From assembly GCF_006716355.1 (NCBI RefSeq), contig NZ_VFOW01000001.1, positions 5,456,001 to 5,520,000 of the forward strand: a stretch of 64,000 bases of DNA. The letters run 5' to 3'. Shown piece by piece: positions 25,553 through 31,612 of this stretch. The stretch's first letter is position 1. Every line of letters starts with the position of its first letter. The notes below the pieces were generated by a model. That model was not told the origin of the DNA, ran no database searches, and saw only the letters and a list, made by a program, of their open reading frames with translations. The DNA comes from Stackebrandtia endophytica (lineage in GTDB: Bacteria; Actinomycetota; Actinomycetes; Mycobacteriales; Micromonosporaceae). The position numbers and the translations under genes are program-made.

Positions 25553-25716
25553 TTCGTGCGAATGCGGAGGAATTACCGTCACAACGGGCGGAAGCCGCGA
25601 TTCCTCCGGTCCAGACGCTCGCCCGCCGGAGCACCTTTTGTCATGGCGTCATCACCATCCGGCACTGTCCGCCGACCGGTGGACCCGACCAACCGGCGTA
25701 GGCGACAATGTTTGCC

Positions 25717-26166
25717 ATGCGACTGTCGGCCCGAGTTGACTATGCCCTTCGCGCCTGCCTGGCGCTGACCGAGGCCGGTGATGTCTGGACCTCCGCCGAA
25801 CGCGTCGCCACCGCGCAACAGATCCCCGCGAAATTCTGCGAATCGATCCTCCTGCAACTGCGACGCGGCGGCATCGTCGAATCCCGTCGCGGACCCGACG
25901 GCGGACACCGGCTCGCCGGTGACCCCCACGGCATCTCCCTCGCCGACGTCATCCGCGTCGTCGACGGCCCCCTCGTCGGAGTCCGCGGCCAACGCCCCGA
26001 ACACGTCGACTACACCGGAGCCGCAGCCACCCTCCAAGACGTCTGGATCGCCCTCCGCGCCAACGAACGCAAGATCCTCGAATCAGTGAGCCTGCACGAC
26101 GTGGCCACCTCGAACCTTCCCGAGGGTGTCGCAAGGCTAACCGCCGACCCCTCCGCCTGGACCTGA
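25717..26166 (+). CDS. Rrf2 family transcriptional regulator
   Basis: 149 residues. N-terminal winged helix-turn-helix typical of Rrf2 (MRLSARVDYALRACLALTEA; wing region RRGPDGGHRLAGDP). The three cysteines that hold an iron-sulfur cluster in IscR, NsrR and RsrR are absent from the central loop; the only non-N-terminal cysteine is in KFCESILLQL. So it more resembles cluster-free members such as CymR, which control sulfur metabolism. ATG 25717 chosen; ATG 25708 would add three residues. A GACAAT box lies 7 bases before 25717. Followed by a repeat block and then a TauE/SafE gene. Confidence 0.9.
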   Translation: MRLSARVDYALRACLALTEAGDVWTSAERVATAQQIPAKFCESILLQLRRGGIVESRRGPDGGHRLAGDPHGISLADVIRVVDGPLVGVRGQRPEHVDYTGAAATLQDVWIALRANERKILESVSLHDVATSNLPEGVARLTADPSAWT

Positions 26167-26183
26167 TTCGCTCGCCCAGGCAC

Positions 26184-26645
26184 GTGTCTGGCGGCGTCGC
26201 TCGCGGGCTTGCCTACCAAAACCGTAGGCGGCGCCCGCGAGCGTCTTGCCATACGCGCACCTGGACGGGCGAATCCGTGGCTCGGAGTCGCACCTCGCTG
26301 CGTTGCGGTCTCCCTTGCCTACCAAAACCGTAGGCGGCGGGAGCCCACGTCTTGCGCTCTGTTGTCTGGTCTGCCTCCGGCAGAACACGTGTCTGGGCGG
26401 GCGAATCGCGGGTGTGGGGGTAGGTGTCTGGCGGTGTCGTGGCTCGGCTTCCCTACCAAGACCGTAGGCGCCCGCGAGCGTCTTGCCATACGCGCACCTG
26501 GACGGGCGAATACCGGGGTTGGGGTACGTGTCTGGCGGTGTCGTGGCCCGGCTTGCCTACCAAAACCGTAGGCGGCGGGAGCCTGCGTTTTGCGCTCTGT
26601 TGTCTGGTCTGCCTCCGACAGAACGCCGCGCCGGACGGGCGAATC
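26184..26645. repeat. Composite direct-repeat block, about 240-bp unit in two copies
   Basis: Four modules recur. Core A (CTTGCCTACCAAAACCGTAG plus GCGG), itself a small hairpin GCCTAC/GTAGGC, starts at 26208, 26314, 26448 (variant) and 26552. Module B, 42 bases, is identical at 26233-26274 and 26470-26511. Module C, 48 bases, occurs at 26339-26386 and 26577-26624 with four differences. Module D (GTGTCTGGCGGTGTCGTGG-type) precedes A at 26184, 26424 and 26528. The order D-A-B-A-C appears twice with a period of 238-240 bases, the second time with an extra D. All six frames give only repeat-encoded peptides and have no ribosome sites, so I read it as non-coding. Confidence 0.9.
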
Positions 26646-31496: not shown

Positions 31497-31612
31497 CCCG
31501 GACACGTCTGTTTGAGGCTGTCTTTGAACCTTGTTTGTTGTGCGACGCAACGGCGGGCTCGGTAACGGCCTCTCAGCCAGGATCTGTCCGTCCGTGTTCG
31601 ACAGGAGCCCCG

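Follow-up and report, generated by a model that had tools for sequence, protein, structure and literature searches.

The repeat block between an Rrf2 regulator gene and tauE of Stackebrandtia endophytica is probably, at a probability of about 0.6, an array of a dispersed, non-autonomous, REPIN/BOX-like palindromic repeat that spread as single-stranded DNA at the replication fork and was then amplified locally. Its units are dispersed through the genome, have been copied unit-exactly, sit at gene ends, point with the replication fork, and fold into a long hairpin. It thus has the look of a mobile DNA repeat that expanded in this species, not of a purely local oddity, and a new family of palindromic repeats is the best reading of the evidence laid out below.

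The repeat block and its hairpin unit

The block spans positions 26167-26644 of the window, the 64,000-nucleotide stretch of DNA that was analyzed. It begins directly 3′ of the TGA of the Rrf2 gene and not at 26184, where the earlier note had placed its start. That note had described four cores (A), a period near 238 nt, two identical copies of a module B, and no credible gene, and all of these are found in the sequence. TRF reports a period of 238 with 1.8 copies and a score of 648, and the open reading frames that cross the block are readings of the repeat itself. By reading of the sequence, the two B copies (26230-26274 and 26467-26511) share 45 identical nt instead of the 42 first given. 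The core of unit 3 carries one mismatch (CCCTAC).

The natural unit is one imperfect hairpin of ~107 nt, of which core A is only the apex. The block is a tandem of four such units (Table 1), and units 2-4 are without the terminal 5′ arm. The earlier parse into modules D-A-B-A-C, occurring twice, captured a real doubling, which is a duplicated pair of units, and was otherwise too fine: D together with the sequence preceding it forms the 5′ arm, and B and C are two alternative 3′ arms. In unit 1, the 5′ arm is TTCGCTCGCCCAGG and the 3′ arm is CCTGGACGGGCGAA; the base of this first hairpin adjoins the Rrf2 TGA, whose G and A have possible pairing partners in the 3′ arm. Unit 2 has a small extra hairpin, TCTGCCTCCGGCAGA, at 26370-26384 on its 3′ side, and unit 4 has the small hairpin at 26608-26622 with one change. 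The spacers at 26407-26430 and 26512-26526, like those of other arrays (e.g., genome position 4445595), are G-rich (GGGGTTGGGG, GTGGGGGTAGG) and might form G-quadruplexes.

Table 1. Positions in the window of the repeat units and the sequences adjoining or matching them.
Feature	Position	Strand	Basis or remark
TGA stop codon of the Rrf2-family gene (25708-26166)	26164-26166	+	Rrf2 by NCBIfam and Pfam
Unit 1, complete ~107-nt hairpin; apex core 26211-26229	26167-26273	+	Folding; R1 and R2 matches
Unit 2, without terminal 5′ arm, long 3′ side; core 26317-26335	26274-26406	+	
Unit 3, G-rich spacer then hairpin with short 3′ side; core 26451-26469	26407-26511	+	
Unit 4, G-rich spacer then hairpin with long 3′ side; core 26555-26573	26512-26644	+	
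114-nt stretch identical to the copy at genome 3408090	26163-26276	+	Flanks differ

Folded as RNA, unit 1 reaches a ΔG of -76.8 kcal/mol, compared with a mean of -49.1 for shuffled sequences (z -7.6; 0 of 200 shuffles as stable), and it folds as DNA too (z -5.1). Among 34 distinct units, 92.6% of cells pair and 23 pairs have changed at both partners; the covariation score reaches 0.344, compared with 0.149 for shuffled and at most 0.113 for slid versions. For 30 sequences from this genome and seven others, belonging to several genera, the score is 0.541 against 0.201 for shuffled. None of 500 shuffles reaches either score and all slid controls lie far below; the scores are not probabilities, because the copies are kin, a kinship that the slid controls preserve. 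The terminal arms pair, yet their sequence varies from locus to locus. Mismatches and bulges occupy fixed positions that are conserved between genera, unit length and apex-to-stop distance are nearly constant, and the stem pairing takes in part of the stop codon (GATTCGC/GCGAATC). On the sense strand, G.T exceeds A.C (68 versus 27), mainly in three columns, and the antisense strand is no less stable than the sense strand.

Copies, placement, and orientation in the genome

The genome holding the window is a single contig of 5,663,490 bases with 46 exact occurrences of the core and none of a reversed control pattern; the core is absent from all 40 relatives examined. The block matches 64 places in the genome, and R1, a covariance model of the unit, gives 95 matches, which include some antisense matches or members of a second family, described below. 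The copies are many, dispersed, and mostly intergenic, and are counted as about 33 arrays of one to about eight units each. One 114-nt unit (CTGATTCGC...GAATCC) is identical at the block and at genome 3408090, where it also lies 3′ of a gene's stop codon. Since both flanks differ, this identity indicates recent copying of exactly one unit, by transposition or gene conversion. A mobile non-coding repeat, as the earlier note had proposed, is supported by the exact cores, the arrays, and this unit at two distant loci. Its alternative of a local duplication without wider meaning supposed that no other copies existed and fails on the copies found genome-wide, and its small-RNA or binding array receives no direct support. 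The full-length hairpin, the placement at stop codons, the leading-strand orientation, and the wider family had escaped it.

In 23 of the 33 arrays, the first unit starts -8 to +6 nt from the stop of a co-oriented upstream gene. At three more (genome 2381520, 3736438, and 4488597), an open reading frame enters the array through an in-frame TTA at the boundary. This TTA is the native stop position in both cases that were checked, and the third case, whose reading frame has no family match, is uncertain. In G003, a genome of the same genus, the orthologue of a MATE transporter ends in GAER followed by TAA, and TTA stands at that place here; the homologue of a permease ends in GGVKG and a stop, where this genome reads GSLKG and then TTA. 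Because the native stop position reads TTA, the MATE transporter (4488597, L097) and the sugar ABC permease (3736438, L090) apparently gain about 58 and 99 residues, respectively, that the repeat encodes. One array starts at the 3′ end of a tRNA-Gln gene, for a total of 27 gene-end arrays, and the remaining six lie away from gene ends.

The upstream genes are unrelated and include those for acyl-CoA dehydrogenase, FolE, 4-hydroxyphenylpyruvate dioxygenase, EccD, Rrf2, and a protein kinase, among others. In G003, the end of the orthologous protein falls at an identical or almost identical position, which places the element behind the native stop, and the sequence that follows the stop is mostly a different one; most of the G003 loci are therefore empty counterparts, without the element. 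A ROK-type gene has the element in both species, and degenerate elements seem to be present at eccD and at a serine dehydratase gene. The trinucleotide at the left boundary is TAA, TGA, TAG, or TTA, with TAA over-used (9 of 23 versus 12%, P 7e-4).

A T-N-A or T-R-A target, even if coding DNA is avoided, would bring only 7.5-13% of copies to stops and is rejected as a sufficient cause. Truncation of genes by a stop within the element is rejected in most cases by the (nearly) equal ends of the G003 orthologues, although the acyl-CoA dehydrogenase falls about three residues short of its orthologues. Arms growing outward until they meet coding DNA would not keep the apex-to-stop distance nearly constant. 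Native terminators are not favored as targets, given that other strong hairpins spread roughly 0-70 nt behind stops.

The orientation of the arrays follows replication. The origin is placed by dnaA at 3.017 Mb and by a flip in the GC skew of non-coding DNA, which is negative over most of the stretch between 0.05 and 2.82 Mb and positive over most of that between 3.2 and 5.56 Mb. Arrays point with the replication fork in 30 of 33 cases overall and in 27 of 27 at gene ends, compared with 168 of 302 sampled genes (56%), and no array was found at the end of any lagging-strand gene. A binomial test that takes arrays as independent gives P 2e-5 for 29 of 32 arrays, before the array at 132 kb was assigned, and P 2e-7 for 26 of 26 gene-end arrays, which is still 6e-4 if 75% of such genes were leading. 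Arrays that point with the fork have the sense strand of the element on the lagging-strand template.

Relatives and known repeat families

Of 101 genomes from the same taxonomic family, 21, counting this one, carry R1 matches, some of which belong to the second family of repeats; related single hairpins are present in other genera. In G012, a genome from a different genus, 20 hairpins occur singly, and the arms of several are near-perfect. Ten of the 20 start at an upstream stop and at least four end at a convergent stop, namely L243 and the hairpins L235, L236, and L237, each of which spans exactly the distance from one convergent stop to the other. The preference for the leading strand in this genome is weak, at about 12 of 17 on a single contig, and the origin is only guessed from noisy skew. 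At another G012 copy (G012:C2:3369766-3369934, L250), an insert of ~60 nt in the apex shows that the apical loop tolerates extra sequence. More stop-abutting copies are present in G015, G020, G022, G058, and G003. The R2 scan of the phylum found nothing convincing outside the family, which is weak negative evidence as nine candidates were scored per genome. A plasmid similarity search with a G012 copy found no match, viral contigs gave one pattern match, and 257 Gb of bacterial genome contigs gave one 19-mer match, on a Litoreibacter contig, a level expected by chance.

A second dispersed hairpin family is seen in this genome (L140, L142-L148) and in G001 (L129) and G004 (L137). It is MITE-like, with apparent terminal repeats GAAGCTGTCTTT / AAAGACAGCTTC and, in most inspected copies, TTA or TAA flanks on both sides, and some copies lie near gene ends. 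It has an inner motif, GGCGTTGTCGG...CCTCCGCCTTGC, in common with the family studied here. Between two genes of the window, positions 31514-31525 read GAGGCTGTCTTTGAACC, one mismatch from a second-family end and perhaps a remnant; a search for its inverted partner found none.

The earlier note could name no IS, CRISPR, or REP class for the block, and as far as tested this stands. Flanking target duplications and a common transposase, which it had put forward as a check, did not appear: the flanks, as read, have no matching short direct repeats at both ends, and a search of the genome for Y1_Tnp (PF01797; RAYT) had no match, the same search being positive in 5 of 14 control genomes. Rfam covariance models gave nothing above the gathering score. 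The GT[AG]G sequence at the hairpin foot is absent in alignment A1, where the foot is variable and follows the stop codon. The arms pair and differ between loci, so conserved terminal inverted repeats, a trait of MITEs, are not seen, and the four diverged hairpin units have no unique spacers of the CRISPR kind.

Integron attC sites are long imperfect bulged hairpins just behind a gene's stop codon, as are the units described here. However, the AAC...GTT terminal triplets of attC are absent in alignments A1 and A3, and the units are dispersed over the chromosome and form tandem arrays without genes between them. REP, BIME, and REPIN elements are likewise non-autonomous, intergenic, and hairpin-forming, with many copies and clusters, and REPINs are REP doublets predicted to fold in single-stranded DNA or mRNA (PMC3116915). 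Unlike REP and REPIN with their RAYT (TnpA_REP), the present element comes with no Y1_Tnp gene found and no GT[AG]G foot; in place of two conserved REP ends it has one long asymmetric hairpin with variable, covarying outer arms; and it starts at stop codons, with gene-end copies on the leading strand only.

The pneumococcal BOX (A-Bn-C, modular) and RUP (107-bp) elements are also small interspersed repeats that fold as RNA; they are over-represented between convergent genes and mirror the coding bias, at about 61% leading (PMC3049150). They have terminal repeats and target duplications, whereas no duplication is seen here, placement is exact at stop codons, and all gene-end copies are leading. 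The IS200/IS605-type elements IS608 and ISDra2 target the lagging-strand template and recognize hairpins (PMC6006769), which would explain the orientation found here, but no such transposase domain was found in this genome and no tetranucleotide target is evident beyond the stop codon. In the literature searched, no description was found of repeats that combine native-stop placement, a leading-only orientation of gene-end copies, and a fold shared by several genera.

Proposed spread of the element and competing explanations

As a mobile palindromic repeat, the element would spread when an enzyme acting in trans copies the hairpin that single-stranded DNA forms, for which the lagging-strand template offers the easiest place. 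Arrays would then grow by tandem duplication after insertion, and arms and modules may be shuffled between copies. The hairpin RNA would probably serve the upstream gene as a strong 3′-end structure, either a termination aid or an exonuclease barrier, as a side effect. Present mobility and the mobilizing enzyme are what we infer from these patterns. Counting against this explanation are that the search for Y1_Tnp found no mobilizing enzyme, that the flanks, as read, gave no matching target-site duplications, and that the outer arms differ from one locus to another, which the conserved ends of transposons do not. The weak leading bias in G012, the sense strand being no stabler than its complement, with its G.T excess concentrated in a few columns, and the stop-codon precision, which lacks a worked-out mechanism, weigh on the same side. 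A more specific form, in which the insertion machinery of a mobile single-stranded hairpin targets gene 3′ ends (stops and the tRNA end) on the lagging-strand template, is offered tentatively, as less likely than not; to our knowledge, such a targeting mechanism has not been described for any repeat family.

The main rival, itself unlikely, is that these are selected RNA elements of gene 3′ ends, acting as bidirectional terminators or mRNA stabilizers and spread mainly by gene conversion and duplication instead of transposition. It is in keeping with arrays that sit at stop codons and, once, at the 3′ end of a tRNA, with the strong covariation, with the exactly filled convergent gaps of G012, and with the few sites in common with G003 orthologues. 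Such elements would nonetheless be found at only about 27 gene ends of a 5.66-Mb chromosome, behind genes without obvious common function, and at no lagging-strand gene end, though termination is needed there too; most G003 orthologues are without them. A ribosome that terminates at the stop codon, which the hairpins touch or overlap, would melt them. The intrinsic terminator scan found one weak plus-strand match inside the array (26337-26355) and no T-tract behind the full hairpin; across the block, the few matches that resemble terminators and have T-rich tails are weak.

That the elements are MITEs in decay, derived from an IS5-like DDE transposon that targets T-N-A, kin to the second family and with ends rewritten by palindrome correction, is improbable. 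The apparent terminal repeats, TTA/TAA flanks, and common inner core motif of the second family speak for it, as do the left-boundary trinucleotides of the studied family and their over-use of TAA. The right side of the studied copies, however, has no matching T-N-A, T-N-A targeting alone cannot yield the concentration at stops, and a DDE transposon is not expected to show leading-strand orientation.

Very improbable is that the repeats are inert by-products whose arm covariation stems from quasi-palindrome correction (template switching at the fork) and not from structural selection: template switching perfects imperfect palindromes, and the pairing does include part of the stop codon, but correction would erase the fixed mismatches and bulges conserved between genera, and unit length and apex-to-stop distance are nearly constant.

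Interspersed palindromic repeats are already known in many bacteria. If the elements of this family move, they reveal a targeting rule, with the gene end as a safe site, and an enzyme not yet known; if they stay in place, they form a class of repeated gene-end hairpins that is itself unusual. In both cases, the block would be expected to affect read-through from the Rrf2 regulator gene to tauE.
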